A stretch of DNA of 64,000 nt, taken from contig JAVTLE010000015.1 of the NCBI GenBank assembly GCA_033439295.1, positions 1,860,001 through 1,924,000 on the forward strand. Reading direction: 5' to 3'. Under the pieces are notes generated by a model. That model worked only from the letters and a program-made list of their open reading frames with translations. It was not told the DNA's origin and ran no database searches. Both the position numbers and the translations under genes were made by a program. Below, one piece after another: positions 4,889 through 41,000 of the stretch (position 1 is its first letter; every line of letters starts with the position of its first letter). Source of the DNA: Deuterostichococcus epilithicus (Eukaryota; Chlorophyta; Trebouxiophyceae; Prasiolales; Stichococcaceae).

Positions 4889-5520
4889 ATGAGCACGAGG
4901 CGTTCAACAGTCACCGCCGCCACAGAGGCTGACGCTGCGGAGGAGTGCGAGAATACCCTTTTTCCCAGGCCACTTCGTTTGCAAGCTCCGATCTGCTGCG
5001 CCTCCTGGCGCGCTGACGTGGCGCACACTTCGCAACATTCCCTGCGGCGTAACCATGCTGCACGCCTCATAACTGCGATCTCAAACGAGCCTGAAATTTC
5101 ATCAAGTGTGAGAGGAAGAGCTTCGCCGCATGTGGAAAGGAAGCTGGTAGCTGTACCAGGAGAAGCTGGCTTCACAGGGTAGCTGGCTTCTCAAGTCGGA
5201 AGGCCGTCTCAAGCGCAGACACACATGCAAACCGGCGCCATGGTGTTTGGCAGAGATGTGCGCTTTGATCCCACACCTTCAGCAGTGTGCTCTGTGCCAG
5301 TGGCGGTTGCGGTCTATCTGTCTTTTGAGACAGGTCGAGTCTGTAACATAGAGGCTGCTCCCTGCACCGCGGAGTGCAAACCACTGCTTTAAGTGCACCG
5401 ACTGCCAACGGAGGGCCTGAGCCCGGCAGCTGTGATCTGCAAGAGTTGTAAGCATGCTGTCCGCCTTTTCTTGCGTTCCTCGGACCTGACCTCGAGGCGG
5501 AGTCATGCTCAAAACTGCAG
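4889..5520. other. Gap between divergent genes; may hide 5' exons
   Basis: The membrane-protein gene to the right lacks its first exons and they should lie here. An open stretch at 4920-5180 (+) contains a Cys pair and could be one, but no phase-consistent splice to 5521 was found. No other feature seen. Confidence 0.35.
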
Positions 5521-6737
5521 GCCCTTCGAGGTGCCCGAGATGCGTCGCAGTCTGTTGCCGACGCCGTTTACCAGCATGCAGACGCGATCCAGGTGAGCAA
5601 GCGGTCCAGCAGTGGCCACAATAGGTGGTGAACCAGTGACCTCACTCACTATCTGAGACCAGCGAAGGTCCTTAGGCATTCTTTCGTGTTCAAATGCAGC
5701 ACCTGGCAGAGGCGTTGGAGGAGGAGGTCTCTAGCTACACGCAGGAGCTGGCCGCTCGGATCGCACTGCTGCATGACAGCGCCGGCAAGATCAGCAATGC
5801 AGGTGCGATTGTGCGCGGCTTTGGCACCGCTGTTCGATCTGCACTCCTCAAGCGTGCCGCTGCGCCGCTATGCACTCACATATGCAGGCAGGGGAGTTTC
5901 CTGCAAGCAACTGACGCCACCGCCGTTACTCGATGCGCCATCCTCCTTCGCGCAGGCTTGGAAATTGCACGGACTGGCGACCGCATCGCGTTGTGTGGGG
6001 AGCACATCGCGCTCGGCATCCAGCAGACGGTCGTCGTCTTTGCTGCCAGCATGCTCACGGTGGTGGCAGGCATCTTTGGTACGCAGCCTGCCGCTCCATG
6101 AAGCACTGCGGATCTTCGTCGCACTTCTGCATCGCCCAACTCAGCACGTCGTGGCGCTGCTCGGCCCGCCCTGACACGACCAAGATCTTGATGCCATCTG
6201 CTTGTGCCTGAACCTGCAGGCTGGCGGTACCTGGTGCTCGGCTGCATGCTGCTGTGGCTGTCTGGGTTCGAGCTGGCGAGCCGGAAGCCGGCGGCCAGCC
6301 AGCAGCAGCAGCAGCAGCAGATCCACGAGCAGGGCAAGCAGCGCTGGGGCGACGGCGGCCCGCCGCAGCTGCACAGCCCGCGGCAGGCAGCTGACGGCGC
6401 CGCAGCGGCTCCGAGGCGGGTTTCCTTCGAGCAGGACGCCCTCGGCGGCGAGCACGCCGGGAACGGCGGGGCGGGCGGCCGGCATGTCGAAAACAGCGAC
6501 GGTTCTGCGACAGTCTCGGCGTCCATGGGGCGACCGGAGGCTGGCGGCGGCACTCGGAACGAGGTCCTGGATGGTGTTTATATTAATGTTGACGCGGCAG
6601 CGCCGGTGACAAGGGACCAGCCAGGCGGCCAGGTTGCTCCGCGCGCGCTGGACGTGGCCACGCAGCTGGCGTCGCAGATCAGGGAGTCGCAGACTGCTCG
6701 AGACCTGGCGGCGGCGTCGCCGCAGCAGGCGTCGTGA
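5521..6737 (+). CDS. Coiled-coil, two-TM membrane protein (5' partial)
   Basis: Four exons join in phase: 5521-5592, 5700-5802, 5956-6078 and 6220-6737 (TGA), giving the last 271 residues. Order: an amphipathic coiled coil rich in Ala, Glu and Gln (ends near LHDSAGKISNAG), then two adjacent hydrophobic segments (TVVVFAASMLTVVAGIFG and YLVLGCMLLWLSGF) with only WR between them, then a long hydrophilic tail starting with seven Gln encoded by CAG repeats. A coiled coil before a tight C-terminal TM hairpin resembles the KAR5/GEX1/Brambleberry nuclear-fusion family, but the Cys-rich N-terminal domain that would prove it was not located. Treat the family as tentative; the gene itself is well supported by phase. 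Confidence 0.62.
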
Positions 6738-7178: not shown

Positions 7179-8948
7179 CTAATCTCGCCTGAACTTTTGA
7201 GTCTGCAGGAAGTTGACCACGAGCTCAGCGACCCCTGCATCCCACATGATGTCGCTGTGCTGCAGGTGCACCTCTGCAAAATCGGTCTCGAGGCCAGTCA
7301 GGCGTGTCTCGTCCACCGCCACGGTGCCGTCTGAGGGGCCTGCAGCAACAGCAGCTTGACTGTAGAAATGACGAGCATGGTCTGACGGATGTCGTAGACA
7401 CTGGAGCTGCGCAACTGCTGGGTGGCTGCTGCTGCGACTGCTGCTGCCTACCACCTCGGCTCGCGCTGGTGCATGATCCACACAACCTCGTGCTTCGCGC
7501 CACTCCGGCTTCTGCAGGTGCCATGCCTCTTCATCGTAGCGGGGACTGTGGTTGCTATGCCCCATGGCTCCAGCTTCTGCAACCGCTGTGCCCAGGGGCA
7601 GCGCCGTCAGAGCTGTGCCCCAGGGCAGCGCCGTCAGATCGGGTAGCAGATAGGGTTGGGCAGACTGACCTGAGAAGAAGCGGAAGGCGGTGGTGAGCCA
7701 GCTGACGGGGTGGCCGGCGCTGAAGGAGCGCGTGCCCGCAATGATGCCCACCGGCTGCAGCGGCGGCGGCCACTGCTTGCCCTCCTCCAGCTCGCACCCC
7801 AGGTCCATCCCTGCCCGGCCATCGTGATGCCGCTGGTCATGCATGTGTGAGCGACCAGCGAGTTCCGAGTCGGCACTGCAATGCGCAGCGACGTCGAGAC
7901 TGCGTCGGCATGGCTGACAGGGCAGCCCCGATCAGCTGCTGCCGAGCGCGCCACACCCACCCGCCTTGCCGTAGATGCGGCTGAACACGGTGCTGATGGG
8001 AAAGTGCAGGCCGCGAAACCGCCGCGCCACGCAGCTGCCCGCATTGGGCGGCGCCAGCATGCAGCAGCCCTTCCACCTGATACCTCCTGCCAGGGGCAGG
8101 CCTGAGCAAGTGAGCCGACGCTGCTGCATAACCCATTGGCAAAACATGCCACGGGCATGAAAACGATGTGAGAACACTGCGCTGCTCCCGCCGAACAGCA
8201 CCACATTCCCTGCCTCACCTCGGTCTGGCAGCGCCTGTATGTGTCGCAGAATGCTGCGAGCAGAGGTTTGGCACACGTGAGATATTTTTTGGTAAATGTC
8301 GGCCTGAAAACTTCAATTCTTGTATATAAAAATCTGACCGAAGCACACAGCTCACATGCCGCCAAGGCTGTGCGTCACCGCCCAGATCTCTTCCTCCTCC
8401 CCTGCCACCTCCTTGATCTCCTTTGCCACCCGGTCCGCCAAGTCCTGTGTGCGAATTTAGAGCAGGTTTACGCCGCGCTTCGTGAGTGCAGTAAAGGGAG
8501 GCACCGAGTCGGGAGTGCAAGGTGCTTTGAGTGCACATGAGACTACAAGCTCATCTAGGACTCAGGAGGTGTCATCAACTCGCACCTTGATGGTGTAAGC
8601 CCGGGATGGGTACTCGATGATGTGCGCCCGCCAGCCTGTGCGCTGTTTGATGTGCCTGATCAGGCAGCAAGCATCGATATGCTGAGTCCAGCTGAGCTCT
8701 GCACGACGTAATGCAATTCACTGGGCATCGCGAGGGCTGAGACTATGCCGAGCGCACGAACACGAATCGATGCGCCGAGGTGCACATTCAGGAAGCACAC
8801 ACTTTTCGAGCTTCTCCATGCACTTGGCGTCACGTAGCAGGCCATGTAGCAGGATGACAGTCGGCTGACTCTGTGACTGACTGGCAATTTGTGACGATGC
8901 GTTTGCAGGCTTCACGACTGGTGATGTTCCTGCAACAGCACGCTGCAT
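7179..8948 (-). CDS. Alpha/beta-hydrolase, lipase-like
   Basis: Seven exons join without a frame break into 255 aa: 8803-8948, 8586-8655, 8356-8444, 8219-8253 (35-nt exon), 7961-8086, 7670-7810 and 7179-7339. The strand-turn VILLHGL gives the oxyanion region; VTHSLGG is the nucleophile elbow (Ser); GPSDGTVAVDETRL carries the acidic residue; and HLQHSDIM supplies the His. MLAPPNAGS follows the elbow as in the bacterial and plant small-lipase/PGAP1-like group. The triad is complete, so an active serine ester hydrolase is likely; substrate unknown. No signal peptide is obvious, so a soluble or organellar place is inferred. The start at 8948 is the first ATG of the open exon; an acceptor just inside it leaves a longer N-terminus possible. 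Confidence 0.87.
7586..7639. repeat. 27-bp tandem duplication in an intron
   Basis: Two near-identical units beginning CTGTGCCC and ending GCGCCGTCAGA lie head to tail inside the last intron of the lipase-like gene. Confidence 0.7.
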
Positions 8949-9265
8949 TCTTCAGGGCAGCTGAACCACGCCGTAAGATGTCGGAACCGATCCTCTAGAT
9001 GACGAGTTGATGGTCGAAGGGCACGAATTGAGATGTCGTTCACTGAGAAGAAGGTGGATGACAAAACGTTGCGTGAGCTGCAGCTTGCTGCAGTCAGCTG
9101 CACATCATCGGCTGATGGTTCCTGTGTGCTTCCCTGTGTGACTCTGTCCTTTGTCTCATGTGACCAATGGTGTGTGGTGAACGCCGCTACGATTCAAATT
9201 AAGGTCCCTCGGAAACTCAACTACAGCTACAGACGGCAGAGCAACGCACGCTGCGGGTGCTTGGC
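8949..9265. other. Spacer between two minus-strand genes
   Basis: Holds the 3' end of the AP-2 mu transcript and the upstream region of the lipase-like gene. No other element seen. Confidence 0.45.
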
Positions 9266-15226: not shown

Positions 15227-18200
15227 ATGGCCCCAGCAGCGCAGTCTGACGCCAGCCCAGCGGCGTCGCAAACGCTGCAATTCCCAACGACCGTGGCGCA
15301 GGCCACCAAGCTGCTGGTGCCGCCGCCGGAGCTGCCGGAGGAGAAACGCGCCCAGATCTCCAAACTGTTTGACGAGTTCGACGACAACCACAATGGCAGC
15401 CTGGACGCTGCAGAGCTGCAGGTTTGTTTCCTGCGCACTGCGTTCACGTGATGAATGTGCAGCTGACGGCGCGCAGCTCGGAGCAAATGTCTCGTCATCG
15501 TCCAGCCTGTGTGATAATGAACGCGCTCAGACGTTGAGTATGTTACAAACACTGTTGCTTGTGCATTGGTAGGAGCATTCGCCCCGTTCATGCAGCCTTG
15601 GCGGCGACGCCGCCAATGTGGTGAGCGGTCAGGTAGCTGACGCCTTCGTCTGTCACCTTGCAGAGTGCGCTGAAGGCGCTGGGCCTGCCGAGCTCGCGGG
15701 AATACGTCAAAAACATCCTGCAGCAGTACGACACGGACGGTAATGGAATGGTGCGCGTGTCATGTCAGTGTCTGGACTCTGCTCAAGCTGCATATGCTAG
15801 CGCCGCTTAACGTGCTATGTGTCACCCAAAGCAGTGTCCACCAACCTTGATGTGCGCGATTGCGGTGCTCCGCAGCCCCGGCCCGTGGCCTTGGCTTCGG
15901 CCAGTGATAGAATTATGAAATACACGGATGTTGCGCTGCTGCAGGTGGACCTTGGCGAGTTTTACGACTACATCGCGCGCAAGGAGGATGCCATCTTCCA
16001 GACGTTCCAGGACCTGGACATCGACGGCACCGGCGAGGTGGACGAGGAGGAGCTGCTGCGTGCGCTGCGGTGAGCGCTGGGCGGTGGTTGAAGGTTCCCT
16101 CAAGTGCAGCTATCGCAAGGGCGGCGTCCGCGGAGGATGGTGCTGCCACTCCACTCTCGGCATGGCGCAGTGAGGGCCTTGCCAAGGCAGCGCCCCACCT
16201 CGGGACGCATCGCAATCCTGGGTTGGGCCTGCCAACGTCCGGCGCCCGAGCCAAAGGCGGTGGCCCCCCGCGCGGGGCGGGGGGGGGGGACCTGCCCAGC
16301 ATGCGAGGGCACCCCTGAGCCCACCAGTCGCACACTGGGGCCTAGACAGCAGCAAAATTGGACGCAGTGCAGTCGATCGCTGCCAGGAGCCTGAGCCTCT
16401 GGCGCGTCTCACATGCCCCCAGCATCCCACTTCGCTGCTGCCTGCAGCGACTGGCTGGCAGCGGAGTGCGCACCGCCAGTGCACAGCCGGCACACTGAAT
16501 CTGGCCGAATTCAGCAAGAATCTGGCCGATTCTGCCGAAAAAACCTCGCCGCTGCAGGAAATTGGGCATGGACAAGGTCAAGCCGGAGGATGCGGAGCGT
16601 ATGATCCAACTGCTGGACCGAGACGGGGATCGCCAGGTGCCTTCTTAGGGTGTCTGGAGCCCCTTTGGAATACTTCTCCCAGTGAACACCTGTCCGTGCT
16701 CTACTGCAGGACACTGTGCAGCGTTCCTGTCTGTTCAGGCACACGCGTCTGCTTTCCAACCGCTAGTGCCCCCCTTCTCGCCGGACCACTGCACAGGACG
16801 CGGCGCGGCAAATGAGGGGAAGACGATCGCATAGGCCTGTGCTGCTCTTGCCTTGCTTCGTGCTCGAACCTCACTCATGCTGTTGCATGTCATGACCTGC
16901 AGATTGACTACGAGGAGTTTCGGCGCTTTGTCGTGCTGCTACCCGCCAACCAGCTGTCGGAGGACGGCATTGTGGCGTCCTGGATCGACTCTGCTGACTG
17001 GATGAGCGGCATCGAGTACAGGCAAGTCAATCCATAGGGCACCAGTCCGTTTGTTTGGTGTGTTACCACCCTTGGCTGAGCCTGGCGCCGCTGCAGCACT
17101 TTCGAAAGCGGCTGATGGCCGGCAGGCGAACTGGTCGTATAAAGAGTTTGCGCAGTTTTGAGCACAGCTCAAGGACGGGATCCTTCTTGAATTTCATAGA
17201 TGGCTGTCTCGACCCCTCGCAAATGCAGGCTAAGTCTGGCACCGCCGCAGCACGTGCACGAGCGGCTAGTGGCGGGCAGGAGACAAGGCGGTCTTGACAC
17301 CTCGCTGTTGGATGAGAGCTGAAAGGGCACTATGTTGAATCTCTTAAGGCAACCTTTCACGATATGCTCCACAGTGCAGGCTGCGCCTGGCGCCGCAGAA
17401 CCTGCACAAGCGGCTGATGTGAGGACACATCACGAGAATGGTAGTCCCGCAGACGGCTGGTTCTAAATCCGGCCCGTGCAGGCTGAGCCTGGCGCCGCCG
17501 CAACACCTGTACGAGCGGCTGGTGGCGGGCGGCGTCGCAGGCGCGGTGTCACGCACGGCTGTGGCCCCCCTGGAGCGGCTGCGCACCATGATGATGGCCA
17601 CCGCAACCGGCAGCCTGCCGGAGACTGCGCACCGCATGTGGGCCGACGGCGGTGTGCGCGGCCTGTTCAAGGTGCCAAGGGCCTTTCGCAATTGCCTCCA
17701 GTCAGCGTCCGCCAGCATGCACAAGCAGCTTCTGTCTGCGAATGAGGTGCATGCTGCAGCTCGACTGTAGCCGCTGCATGCGCACAGCTGCGGGTCGCCT
17801 GCTCGAGTCCGCCGAACGATGCGGCGGGCTGCCGGTGCGCAGGGCAACCTGGCGACCGTCACGAAAGTGATACCGCAGACGGGGATACAGATGGCGGTCT
17901 ACGACTCTGTGAAAGACTACTTCCAGGCGCTGGAGCCCGACAAGAAGCTGACCAACCTGCAGCGCCTGGCAGCAGGTGTTGGGAGCCTCTTGTCCACAGG
18001 CTGGCAGCCTTGCGCTACCAGGTCCTCACAGAATAATCGCAAAATCACCATCTCTAGTCCCCAGTGGCTTTGAATGCACACGTCCAGCATGTGATCGCAA
18101 ATGCGATGCCATCGCCTGCACCTACGGCATGCAGGCACATGGCAGCTGCATTTACAGAGGCGCTGTGTCAGCGCAGGCACCTCTGCGGGCGCCGCTTCCA

Positions 18201-20209
18201 CGCTGGTGACTTACCCCATGGTGAGCTGGAGGCCTTGCACGCCTCTGGGGCGGCTTGCAGAAGCCGCGCCACAGTGGCGCGGGTTCAGAATGGTGGCGCT
18301 TGATGTGGCTGCAGCTGCTGTCGGCGCGCACCTGCTTGAAGCCACAAATGCGCAGTGCCTCAGGAGTGAGTGCAGGACCCAGCTGACCATTGGACCCCTT
18401 CAACACGCAGGAAAACCTGCGCACGCACGTGTCGCTTGGGCGGAAAGGCGGCTACATGAAGATATTGGGAGACATCTACCAGGACAGGGTGCGACTGTTG
18501 CTCAGACCTCCCTCCTCTGCAAGAAAGAAGATTCGATCGAGCTGGGACCGTCAGAGCTCTGCCACGGCTTGAAAATCTGTGCATGCGCCGAGAGCTGCCC
18601 TGTGGCTGCACAAAAGCGCAGCTGTTCGTCTTGAGAGTTTCCCTTCTGCATCTTTCCTCTTGCATGCAGAAGGCCGGTGCGCCCAGTCGATGCCTACTGC
18701 ACCTCTGGCAGCAGACAGCTTGCTGCAGGACCGCCTGACGCCCGGCGCCGCCCTCGCAGGGCCTAGCGCGCGGCGTCTATGGTGGCTTCGGCCCCTGCAT
18801 GGTCAACACGGTGACCACCGTGGGGCTAGGATTCTTCAGCTACGAACTGGGCTGCGACTTTTACAAGAGCTACATCCTCGACACACACCGAGCCCCGACC
18901 CCAGGTGTGCCTCCTTTTGCCGGAACTGACACGCCTCGCAGGCAGTCTCTGTGTGTGGATTGGGGCCTCAAGCTGCATGCTGGGCTGCGACGTCTGCAAC
19001 AGCTGCGTCCTCAACACCCGCCGCGCCCTGATGCCGGGCGCGTCGTCTTCAGCGATGTCCCCTGCCGGAGGCTGGCCTGGCCATGGCCCCCCGCCGCCTG
19101 CCGGGGGAACAGAGCTGGGCTGGCCGGGTCGCGCATCCAGATAACTGTACTCGGGAGGTCGAACGCTCATGGGGTCCAGGTCCGGCATGAGCCGCACACG
19201 GCGTGCAGCTTGCTGACCACTAGCGCTCCTTCATTGGACGCCCTGCACCTCTTGCACCGTATATCTGTCCCATCTGATGGACGCACTCGCCGCCGGTGGC
19301 GCTCACGGCAGCGCGGTCTCCAGCATAGCCTTGCTGACGGTGCAGTGCCGTCCCTCTGACCGCAGGCGAGCGAGGCGTCATTGCGGGCTGCTCCGCAATC
19401 GGAGTCATGGCGGCGACGATGCCCCTGGAGGTCATGGCGCGACGGATGCAGGTGCTTGCACAACCTAATACTCGACCTCGCTGAAAGCATTCATGATCCA
19501 CCCCATGGCATGATTGATACACTAGGTGCACGCTGTCAGGCAAGCCGTCCTGCTTCTCTACCGCAGATACAAGGTGCACCCGGATACCCTGTCAAATACA
19601 CCAGCATGGTCGATTGCGCCAGGTGGGTCTACTTCGACAGCGTGGCGGCGGTGGCAAAGCCCTGCTCAAGCTGCAATGACACCATGCCAGTGACGTCGCT
19701 CGATGCAGTCAGCTGTTTCGCTGAAAAGGCTTCCCTGTGCAATGTGGCTGCTTTCCTTCAGGGTGCTGATGCGGGAGGAGGGACCAAAAGCATTTTATCG
19801 CGGGACCATGTCCAGCTGGATGAAGGTGCGAACAAGACTGTTCAATGTTCACAAGGCGCGAGAGGTGGTTACCCTCGAACGTCGTCTGTGCGGATGAGCC
19901 TAACAACAGCGCAAGTGAAATGTGGGGAAATGGACATGACAACCTGTTTCTTCCCGAATGTCCACACAGGTTGTACCTAGCATCGCCATCGTGAGGTACA
20001 TGTATGAGGTGAGTGTTCCTGAAACTGGAACACTTCTTACCAGGCAGCTTCAAGAGTCTCATGCTGGAATTGTGCCACCGGAACCCAGCAGCATGGAGAC
20101 GTCTGTCGCCTTGCCCGGTGCGCAGGTCATCAATGCGTTCACCGGCCAGGGCACGAGCATCCGCAGCTACCGCGGCCCACGCCCGGAGAAAGCCGGGGCC
20201 GAAGCATGA
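15227..20209 (+). CDS. Calcium-dependent SLC25 carrier (APC/SCaMC type)
   Basis: Fifteen exons join in phase to 507 aa: 15227-15421, 15664-15750, 15945-16069, 16558-16636, 16903-17021, 17482-17671, 17843-17975, 18177-18220, 18411-18488, 18760-18904, 19366-19451, 19567-19622, 19762-19825, 19970-20008, 20126-20209. The first five encode four EF-hands (DDNHNGSLDAAE, DTDGNGMVDLGE, DIDGTGEVDEEE, DRDGDRQIDYEE). The rest are three mitochondrial-carrier repeats with PLERLR, PMENLR and PLEVMA signatures; the third lacks the basic residue in the sixth position. This EF-hand plus carrier fusion is the ATP-Mg/phosphate carrier family of the inner mitochondrial membrane, gated by cytosolic-side calcium. 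Intron 5 starts with GC (17022). Several introns carry decayed exon copies. Confidence 0.95.
17074..17425 (+). repeat. Three decayed copies of the start of exon 6 in intron 5
   Basis: Copies begin at about 17075, 17229 and 17380, before the true exon start at 17482. Each shows GCTgAGcCTGGCgCCGC followed by a stretch encoding variants of QHLYERLVAG. Spacings are 154, 151 and 102 bp. The second and third copies keep a preceding TGCAG acceptor; the third meets a stop soon after; none has an obvious donor. They look like serial tandem duplications that lost function, though use as cassette exons cannot be ruled out from sequence alone. Confidence 0.8.
18958..19045 (+). repeat. Decayed copy of the end of exon 10 in intron 10
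   Basis: The stretch encodes LGCDVCNSCVLNTRRALMPG, 133 bp after the real LGCDFYKSYILDTHRAPTPG at the end of exon 10 (to 18904). The nucleotide match extends upstream to a shared GGATT. The donor site is lost in the copy (GGGCG in place of AGGTG). Confidence 0.75.
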
Positions 20210-22552: not shown

Positions 22553-22735
22553 CTGCCGCAGCGCCTGCGCCTTCCACCAGCATCAGGGCTGCCCCGGCCC
22601 CCGCGCCCGCAACGCCTGCAGCTTGGAGTCGACGCGCCCCAACTTGGCGCTGCCCCTGCGCCTCCCATCAGAATCAAGGCTGCCCCAGCGCTTGCGCCCT
22701 CAGCGCCTGCAGCTCGGAGTAGACACGCTCCACGT
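22553..22735 (-). repeat. Tandem duplication of the 3' coding end (about 91-97 bp unit)
   Basis: The end of the last exon of the 1559-aa gene (minus strand, ending LQALRAQALGQP and stop at 22674) is followed downstream by a decayed second copy that would read LQALRARGPGQP and stop (near 22585-22640). The unit is 91-97 bp with a small indel, and lies outside the coding sequence. Confidence 0.7.
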
Positions 22736-38035: not shown

Positions 38036-41000
38036 TCAGCTCCAAGCTTTGGGATCACAACCCTGCAACGGCAAAGCACTCACCCGCGGCTGCCGCGCCG
38101 ACCGCGCCGCAAGGCCAGCATCGTCGAAGTAGCTGAAGGTGCCCGGCAGTGCCGGCGCCGCAGCCACGTCCACGAGGTGCACGCGGTGCTGCGGCGGCGC
38201 GTGGCACTTGAGGCGGAATTGGCGCAGGAACATGGCGCCGGGCGCGCCCCGCAGCNTGGCCGCGCCGGAGGGGTGCGCCTCACTACGCCTCCTGCCGGGG
38301 GCCGCCGCTGCAGGTGCGTTGCGATCGTCGCCCGGCTGCTCCGGGGTGTGCCTCGGGCTGGTCTCGCCGCGGCGGCCGCCGGTGACGTAGCTGCCGCCGG
38401 CGCTGCTGCCCGCCGCAACCGCCTCGGCCTCCGAGACGAGCTGCCGCACGCCGAAGTCCACGTCTGCGCTGACGGACACCCCGCCAGTCGCGGGCTGCAG
38501 GAGCGCCGTCAGCCCGTGCTGCATTGCGCCGGTGTGCAGCCGCACCAGGCCGCCGCCCGCCATCCAGCGCGCGGCCGCCACCGGCATCTGGGAGCGCGCG
38601 GCGCTGGGAATGGCGGGGAGGACCGGCACCTGGCGCAGCGGGTGGGCGCAGGGTTGCTTTGAGCGGCTTGTGTCTTGCTGGGTCAACCTGGCCAGTGCTG
38701 TCCGAGCGAGGAACATCGCCCTCACGAGCGGGTGTGTATGGGAACCTCGCAAGAGGCAGTGCCCAATGATGCCTGGTCACACACTGAGCCAGAGAGGAGT
38801 GAGGCAAATGCCTGCAAGGTCCGCCGTTCTGCACACAGCAGCAGGAGGTGTGCAATTCAGCCAGAAGAGCCGGGGTTGTACCGGGGCAGCTGTGGCCGCC
38901 TCCGCCCGCGCCAGCAGCTTTCCGTCGGTGCAGCACTGCAGCAGCGCGGCGCGCACTTCCTCTACCGGCGCGTTCGGCATCAGGAAGCGGGTGCGGCCGC
39001 CGGGGTACGTGATGTTGTTGCCACCCGCAGGCCTGACATCTGCCCCGCCTAGGAACTCCTGCGGGAAAGCAATTGCGCAGCATGGAAAGACGGCCAGTGT
39101 GCTCCTGCTTGTCGCCATGAGCTGCTCTCGGTGCAGGCAGGGTCCTTCCAGATGGGGGGCCAGGGCCGTCCGCCACTGGCAGATGGTTCTCTGTGAAGAA
39201 CAATCAGTGTTCATGCCGTCAACCGCCTGAGAATCCGTGTGCGCTGCCGCAACACCTGCCCAGCCGCGTACCAATTGACGCAGCTGCAGGATGGCGGCCG
39301 CCAGGCCGGCGAGCTCGCCGCCCGGCATGCCGCCGCTGGCGTCAGCGGCGTACGCCAGCTGCAGCCAGGGCACGTCGGCGCNGCGGCCTGCGAGCTCCGC
39401 CGCAGCGGCCGCATCGGCGTCCGCCCGCGCGGCTGCGAGCGCGAGCGCCTCAGCGGCTGTGAACACCAGCGCCCGCGGCAGGCGAGGGAACTCCACCTGC
39501 ATGTGGTGTGATTAGCACACAGCGGCACAAGCATCAGGACTGTGAGACTGCCTGCAGTGCTGAGCAGGTGGGTGAGGGGATGCGGCCGGCCCTGAGCGAG
39601 GCTGCGCTTCCGGAGACGTGGTTGTGAGCCACATCATCCTGATAACGTCACGCATTGACACACAGGGGGGGATCATCGCAACGGCGGGTGCAGCACCTGA
39701 ATGCGTATGATGATGTTGTTGATGACCTGCGCACGCATCGATGCACTTCGATGCACAAGGTAAAGGGGCAGTGGTGAGAGGAGCGTGCAGCTGCCTGCAG
39801 AACAGCCGTGCAGTTGCCCATGTCGCCACATTGCCCACTCAGAGGGTGCATCGCACTCACAAAGCTCAAAATTCGGCAGACAGAACTCACCATCGGGATG
39901 TGCTCGGGCCCGCATGACTCGTACAACGCGTTATTGGGCATCACACGAGCTGCGAGGCAGACGTGACAGCACCATCAGCAGACGGCCGCTGCAGCCGAGC
40001 GGCATGTCCGCCTTATGCACATGACCTTTCCCAATGTGAGACAGCCTGCGTCCAGCCCTCACCAGCATGTCGCGCGGCTGGCTGTTGCAGGCCCAGCTGC
40101 TGCGCAGCTGTCGTCTTTGGGCCCTGCTGCTGCGCAGCTGGCTGCCGCGGGGCCGGCCGCTGTGGGATCTGCGGCTGAGCGGCTGGATGCTGCACGACTG
40201 GCTGCTGAGGAGTTCTCGGCTGCACTGCCGGCTGCCGCGAGCTTTGTGGCTGCACAGCTGGTTGCTGTGCGGCTGGCTGCTGCGGGCTCCGTGGCCGCAC
40301 AGCTGGCTGCTGCACAGCTGGCTGCTGCAGGAACTGCGGCTGCGCAGCCAACTGGTGGGGAGCTGGCTGCACTGCTATTTTCTGCGGGCTGCTTGGCTGC
40401 ATCGCTGGTTGCGGCACGACTGGCTGCTGTGGGGTCTGCGGCTGCACGGCCGGCTGGTACGAAGCAGGCTGCTGGGCGGCCGGGCTCTGCGGACTCTGCG
40501 GCTGCGCGGCTGGCTGCTGCGCTTCGCCAGTGCTCATCAGGCGCGCACCGCCGAGCCGCGGCTCTGTCAGCACCAGCAGCCGCTGGGCAGACGGCCGCTG
40601 AGCCCTTGGGGAGGGCCGCACGTTCTGGAGCTGCAGCGGCCGCACCTGCTGCGCAGCAAGGTTCGCCCTCCGGGCTGCCGCCCGCGTCTGACGGCCTGCC
40701 GACCGCGGTCGAGGCGCGCCCGAATGCTGCGGGCGCGGCCCAGTTTGCTGCCGCGGTGGCCCGGACGGCTGCTGCGGGCGCGAATGTGGCGCAGTCGGCT
40801 GCTGCGGCTTGGGGCGTAGCCCAGCCGGCTGCTGCGGCCGCAGCGACACCCCATCCGGTCCTGGCACTGTCGCCTCTGCGGTCGCCTCCACGCCGGAGCC
40901 CGGGATCCAGTCCGGCAGCTGCGGGCTGGTGCGGCCGCCGGAATACAGGGCCTCCGCTCCAGGCAGCAGTCGCAGGCCCCGCGGCGCAAGGCCGGTGCCG

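Follow-up and report, generated by a model that had tools for sequence, protein, structure and literature searches.

Decayed copies of an exon start within the preceding intron of a carrier gene suggest intron growth by tandem duplication across splice sites in the alga Deuterostichococcus epilithicus

Three degenerate copies of the exon 6 head lie in intron 5 of an EF-hand mitochondrial carrier gene in Deuterostichococcus epilithicus. In our best explanation, to which we give a probability of roughly 0.76, these are what is left of a series of tandem duplications across the acceptor between intron 5 and exon 6, one instance of a neutral growth of introns that would operate throughout the genome. 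We favor this reading because the copies exceed chance, are found only in direct orientation and near their source, and have no dispersed relative that our search could find; because copied exon heads precede the exon and copied tails follow it, with some likeness on the intron side, a non-coding-like decay and longer introns where copies occur; and because a potato gene provides the precedent of a duplication crossing an intron–exon boundary (PMC4974935). Against it stand a greater loss of the intron-derived side than a plain neutral model predicts, a somewhat low number of intron-only duplications, the lack of significant likeness in 15 of 27 flanks, half of the six spacer pairs and all but one of the six tail pairs, the absence of any in-frame stop from 33 copies, and exon labels that come from a simple HMM.

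The gene lies in what we call the window, the whole 64,000-nt stretch that was analysed (C13:1860001-1924000 of a 46.8 Mb assembly in 21 contigs); coordinates without a label refer to it. One contig of the assembly encodes PsaB, with photosystem I chains as its best solved matches and green algal ones at the top, which points to a photosynthetic eukaryote and probably a green alga. When its 15 hand-modelled exons are joined, the translation has no internal stop, and Pfam finds N-terminal EF-hands and Mito_carr in three stretches, the makeup of an EF-hand mitochondrial carrier, which we take to be SCaMC/APC-like. The two copy-bearing introns are 460 and 461 bp long, and the remaining twelve measure 115–271 bp save intron 3 (488 bp). 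The features of concern are:

15227..20209, + strand, EF-hand and mitochondrial carrier gene, 15 exons, 507 aa (hand gene model; Pfam)
16903..17021, + strand, exon 5 (hand gene model)
17022..17481, + strand, intron 5, 460 bp, GC-AG, donor GCAAGT after an exon-final CAG
17074..17129, + strand, copy 1 of the exon 6 head, preceded by CTTG, acceptor AG absent
17130..17227, + strand, spacer i2, with in-register likeness to i3
17229..17277, + strand, copy 2 of the exon 6 head, 42/49 identical, TGCAG at 17224-17228
17284..17378, + strand, spacer i3, with in-register likeness to i2
17380..17419, + strand, copy 3 of the exon 6 head, TGCAG at 17375-17379, with 17380-17418 followed by GTGAGG
17421..17481, + strand, spacer i4, the shortest of the spacers
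17482..17671, + strand, exon 6, presumed source of the intron 5 copies (hand gene model)

The copies correspond to approximately the first 40–55 nt of exon 6, at 77–87% identity. They start at about 17074, 17228 and 17379, and exon 6 at 17482 (hand model), giving start-to-start distances of 154, 151 and 102 bp. An earlier note on this DNA had reported three degenerate exon 6 heads within 17022..17671, a span that equals intron 5 plus exon 6, with these same spacings and with an AG acceptor before two of them; all of this was borne out, TGCAG preceding copies 2 and 3 and copy 1 having no AG. The best local alignment of the exon 6 start with intron 5 scores 67, where 2000 dinucleotide shuffles reach at most 32. 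Taken singly, each against 2000 shuffles, the copies score 57 (shuffled maximum 30), 67 (28) and 47 (29). The note had also proposed aligning all four sequences and named identity at the level of chance as the adverse outcome; in the six pairwise comparisons among the copies and the exon 6 head, no score was equalled in 500 shuffles. When all 14 introns of the gene were compared with all 15 exons, a score of at least 36 was seen only for intron 5/exon 6 and intron 10/exon 10, and the best reverse-complement score was 28. A search of the 46.8 Mb assembly with 17074-17481, skipping very common words, returned only the segment itself and the exon 6 start, and we reject an introner, transposon or other dispersed element on the basis of that search.

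How much was duplicated along with the exon starts can be judged from the spacers. A first local test of the six pairs found only i2–i3 notable (39/1000 shuffles). When the copies serve as anchors for a global test, i2–i3 scores 15 against a null of -9.8 (P 0.002; 0/2000 with slightly different ends), i2–i4 shows weak in-register likeness (P 0.026) and i3–i4 gives P 0.10. The 40 nt before copy 2 match those before exon 6 at 22 positions (P 0.0036, the null being unrelated intron tail pairs); the other five of the six 40-nt tail pairs in the array are not significant, and a gapped 60-nt test of the exon 6/copy 2 flank gives P 0.24. Since i2 and i3 are alike in register, intron 5 has probably undergone tandem duplication of a module of about 150 bp, made up of intron end and exon start; the last step most likely involved a shorter unit or a loss of spacer. 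The earlier note's proposal, that a module of acceptor and exon start was duplicated in tandem more than once, remains the best fit, upheld by i2–i3, by the tails of copy 2 and exon 6 and weakly by i2–i4, and left without help from i3–i4 and the five other tail pairs.

In the mechanism that we propose, a segment of about 100–155 bp lying across the intron 5/exon 6 acceptor would have been tandemly duplicated again and again. With the spliceosome using the last acceptor, as we suppose, the protein would be unchanged, and each extra exon start would become intron and decay. The same neutral filter would retain copies of exon tails after donors, as at exon 10, and the outcome over the genome would be a lengthening of introns. 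End-joining repair after staggered breaks, or after paired nicks with fill-in, is the likely mutational source, and unequal exchange or slippage may later have expanded the arrays. The duplicated units would have been contiguous even where the likeness between spacers is gone.

The second pair detected in the gene is the mirror image of the first, a copy of an exon tail in the following intron instead of exon heads in the preceding one. Its intron-side flank shows no likeness (P 0.61).

18760..18904, + strand, exon 10, whose tail (18847-18898) is copied in intron 10
18980..19031, + strand, decayed copy of the exon 10 tail, 41/52 identical to 18847-18898, donor lost

The prevalence of such copies was estimated in 248 kb of the same genome, comprising the window, 17 stretches of 10 kb and 14 kb next to match-rich stretches, an extension that lifts the match rate slightly. 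Outside the carrier gene, exons were labelled with a simple, self-written HMM gene finder, for which the hand model had served as training set. On the carrier gene itself the finder recovers the internal exon boundaries; its errors there are a fusion with the upstream gene, a shifted start of exon 1, an extra exon at 16448-16465 and the calling of copy 3 as an exon.

Exons of at least 60 nt were compared with their neighboring introns, counting scores of at least 36 as matches. There were 33 matches in 664 tests, against 1/664 for unrelated introns and 5/664 for reverse complements. Preceding introns account for 18/332 and following introns for 15/332 (reverse-complement controls, 3/332 and 2/332). 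The matches are strongly polar: 16 of the 18 in preceding introns involve exon heads, 0–11 nt from the exon start (P 1e-11 against random placement), and 11 of the 15 in following introns involve exon tails, 0–8 nt from the exon end (P 5e-7), while a match has about a 15% chance of lying within 11 nt of an exon edge, head or tail. One doubtful case, at 22554-22732, is counted among the 18, and two weak or low-complexity matches (window minus 36001 and L032 4150) were kept among those in following introns. This rule of heads upstream and tails downstream, mostly clear, follows from what splicing tolerates.

About one intron in ten (32/332) bears a match to a neighboring exon, and these introns are longer than the others (median 474 vs 278 bp, P 1e-5), in part because long introns are a larger target. 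The copies span 24–80 nt of exon, mostly at one edge, and by eye usually lack the second splice site. When the window and the 17 stretches of 10 kb were compared with themselves at a score of at least 40, we found 48 direct pairs 30–800 bp apart, among them repeats other than exon copies, and 2 direct pairs 2–9 kb apart; inverted pairs numbered 0 near and 4 far. Near direct pairs scoring at least 42 are present in 10 of the 17 stretches. Three arrays resemble that of intron 5; in the last two below, the weakest copy is 41/80 identical.

L018 7340-7881, decayed heads at 7340, 7535 and 7645 before the exon start at 7836
L018 5548-5915, decayed exon heads before the exon, two copies of the exon start at 5869
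L018 4846-5227, decayed exon heads before the exon, two copies of the exon start at 5148

Three other repeats were noted during this work. The doubtful case at 22554-22732 (minus strand) is a 91-bp tandem duplication of 81% identity that, by eye, seemingly spans a gene's stop codon. L023 9569-9732 is a contiguous, apparently recent 82-bp tandem duplication of 95% identity. At 40095-40521 lies an imperfect repeat cluster rich in GCTGCACAGCTGGCT units, perhaps a low-complexity coding tract.

Under exonerate-like scoring, matches of 80% identity or more to an intron lying within 3 kb in the same gene involve 5 of 364 exons and make up 0.45% of the 59,039 exonic nt; the scan gives no such match to the reverse complement or to unrelated introns. 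Exon 6 of the carrier gene is not among the five exons at this cut-off. A published survey gives exon–intron matches of 0.08% in fruit fly, 0.06% in nematode and about 2% in human, with its long introns (PMC9013439). The excess over fly is thus about sixfold, as a rough guide only, the methods being different.

Intron-side likeness is also seen beyond intron 5. Spacer tests in three arrays, that of intron 5 included, gave P <0.05 in three of six pairs (i2–i3, 0.002; C4j 7472-7534 vs 7581-7644, 0.004; C4j 5748/5869, 0.042) and 0.086, 0.186 and 0.484 in the others. Among 27 edge-touching cases the intron-side flanks are alike at P <0.05 in 12, and in seven of these none of 300 shuffles reached the score. 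The seven comprise C17j 9298, C17j minus 16638, C4j 5183, C4j 10002 and window minus 41386 on the acceptor side and L032 9635 and C4j 10192 on the donor side; two are doubtful as introns, the exon start at C4j 5183 being misplaced (by eye) and window minus 41386 resembling a duplication over a stop codon. The remaining 15 flanks, those of exon 6/copy 2 and exon 10 among them, show no likeness at P 0.05.

The exon-derived parts seem to be better preserved. We simulated neutral tandem duplications on 209 exon-intron-exon triples, a simple model, which predicts 2.3–3.1 exon-edge pairs for each intron-only pair. Outside the window's arrays we observed 25 edge loci and 3 intron-only loci (P 0.02–0.06, rising to 0.13 when the repeat cluster at 40 kb in the window is included as a single locus). 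Of 51 rows, the edge count omits 12 intron-intron rows (3 among the intron 5 copies, 6 from the 40 kb cluster and 3 others), 7 exon-exon or ambiguous ones and 2 without labels. The alignments tend to stop sharply at the splice site: 21 of 30 exon-edge pairs, at 16 of 25 loci, run no more than 8 nt past it on the intron side. In the simulations 4–33% do so, depending on the identity band, and 30–37% overall; tested against 37% and 27%, the excess has P 0.0002–1e-6 by pair and 0.006–0.0001 by locus. Two of the nine exceptions (C4j 4990 and L027 6116) begin at CAG and were, by eye, mislabelled by the finder. A plain neutral model, with tandem duplication and uniform decay, accounts for the main pattern yet fails at this sharp stop, and in that strict form we reject it. 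It seems that the exon-derived sequence of a duplicated unit outlasts the intron-derived sequence. Any of four causes could account for this: gene conversion by the exon, a weak constraint, the way in which cases were ascertained, or a model that is too simple.

The first two of these amount to a different history, in which duplication was followed by refreshment of the exon-derived part through gene conversion from the exon, or by its constraint as DNA or RNA. We regard this history as tentative, if worth serious attention. The sharp stops speak for it, as does the difference within the three arrays, where all ten exon-derived pairs reach P 0.000 (500 shuffles) while only half of the spacer pairs pass P 0.05; on the other side, the arrays were ascertained by that same exon-derived part, the simulations are simple and the pattern has been seen in one genome only. 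A bolder and rather doubtful extension would make splice-site-spanning duplication a main engine of intron growth and have conversion or constraint keep the exon-derived parts, leaving a stock of spare exon edges. If true, these edges would be splice-competent and could be a source of new exons and alternative isoforms.

The spacers and flanks without likeness would also be expected if exon-limited pieces and unrelated filler had been inserted from templates during break repair, instead of contiguous segments being duplicated in tandem. One spacer, C17j 9211-9251 (= L030 5211-5251), between an exon-head copy and its source, does hold telomere-like TTTAGGG filler. TTTAGGG/CCCTAAA occurs 27 times in the 248 kb sample against 4.5 expected, about six times as often, and is present in 5 of 32 copy-bearing and 14 of 300 other introns, a hint of break repair. 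Even so, templated insertion of this kind appears unlikely to us, given the spacer pairs that are alike in register, the placement of the pieces at exon edges and the lack of near inverted copies. Local duplications in direct orientation only, with occasional filler, fit the end-joining of staggered breaks (PMC5730883).

The copies might instead have been kept for a function, as alternative acceptors, short cassette exons or poison acceptors leading to a truncated EF-hand protein. The acceptors of copies 2 and 3, at 7.5 and 7.7 bits, do rank at the 36th and 42nd percentile of gene-model sites and at the 96th–97th percentile of decoy AGs. If the copy 2 acceptor were used, the frame would stay open for 30 codons, to a stop at 17320-17322 (by eye). 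Copy 3 runs directly into a stop unless the GTGAGG behind it serves as donor; the resulting cassette (17380-17418), which the gene finder calls an exon, would have 39 nt, stay in frame and add 13 residues. This putative donor, however, has no G at -1 and scores only at the 14th percentile among donors in use, and the intron left behind the cassette would be 63 nt, unusually short where 90% of sampled introns (limited to 70–700 bp) exceed 138 nt. Copy 1 has lost its AG, by eye neither copy 1 nor copy 2 has a donor behind it at the corresponding position, and the copies cover at most 49–55 of the 190 nt of exon 6, no whole exon with both splice sites being found.

Decay bears on the same question. 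Read in the exon frame, the 33 copies of the sample have a dN/dS of 0.70 (bootstrap 0.55–0.92), and 19 of them contain frame-changing gaps. A free copy compared with a constrained exon should give a dN/dS of about 0.55, by estimate and not by computation. Set against that value, 0.70 gives no sign of a general protein-level constraint, and the copy set looks non-coding-like. Coding alternative exons are not supported as a general explanation by these two figures. In their favor, no copy has an in-frame stop within its aligned part, perhaps fewer than free decay gives, and copy 2 differs from exon 6 by five synonymous and two non-synonymous changes, too few to decide. Taken together these data make functional retention improbable; of the two fates that the earlier note had offered, decayed debris and a reservoir of alternative acceptors, they favor the former. 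As for chance resemblance of GC-rich DNA, for which composition alone could be cited, it is rejected as the origin of the copies with practically no doubt, in view of 0/2000 shuffles for each copy and the 33 matches in adjacent introns against one in unrelated introns.

Duplication across splice sites can be compared with several known systems. In the potato RdRp gene a tandem duplication across an intron–exon boundary formed a new intron, dated with the help of relatives (PMC4974935); here, extra exon starts were seemingly swallowed serially by a single intron, and similar cases are met with elsewhere in the genome sample. Tandem exon duplication and mutually exclusive exons (PMC9013439) likewise leave exon-like sequence in an adjacent intron, whereas the present copies are partial, mostly of one edge, usually without the second splice site and non-coding-like. 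The Rogers model of intron gain by duplication of an exonic segment holding AGGT (PMC3443670) also involves tandem duplication with splice sites inside, but our unit already spans an existing splice site, such that an intron is enlarged and not created. Tandem duplications are known from the repair of staggered breaks and paired nicks (PMC5730883, citing Schiml 2016 and Vaughn & Bennetzen 2014); they too are direct and local, sometimes with inserts, while ours are deduced from old remnants only.

The proposed mechanism is of a known kind, described from single cases, and its prevalence in D. epilithicus is unusual and may be new; a search of titles and abstract openings turned up no study that surveys an algal genome as a whole for partial duplicates spanning splice sites. 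To judge from the sampled sequence, such duplication looks like a common route of intron growth in this genome. The lengthening of introns in compact genomes is seldom visible, and here its remnants can still be read, offering a means of testing how fast local duplications arise, how splice signals decay and how short exons are born.

The donor of intron 5, at 17022, is GC, as are about 13% of the donors chosen by the gene finder, a share that the finder may inflate.
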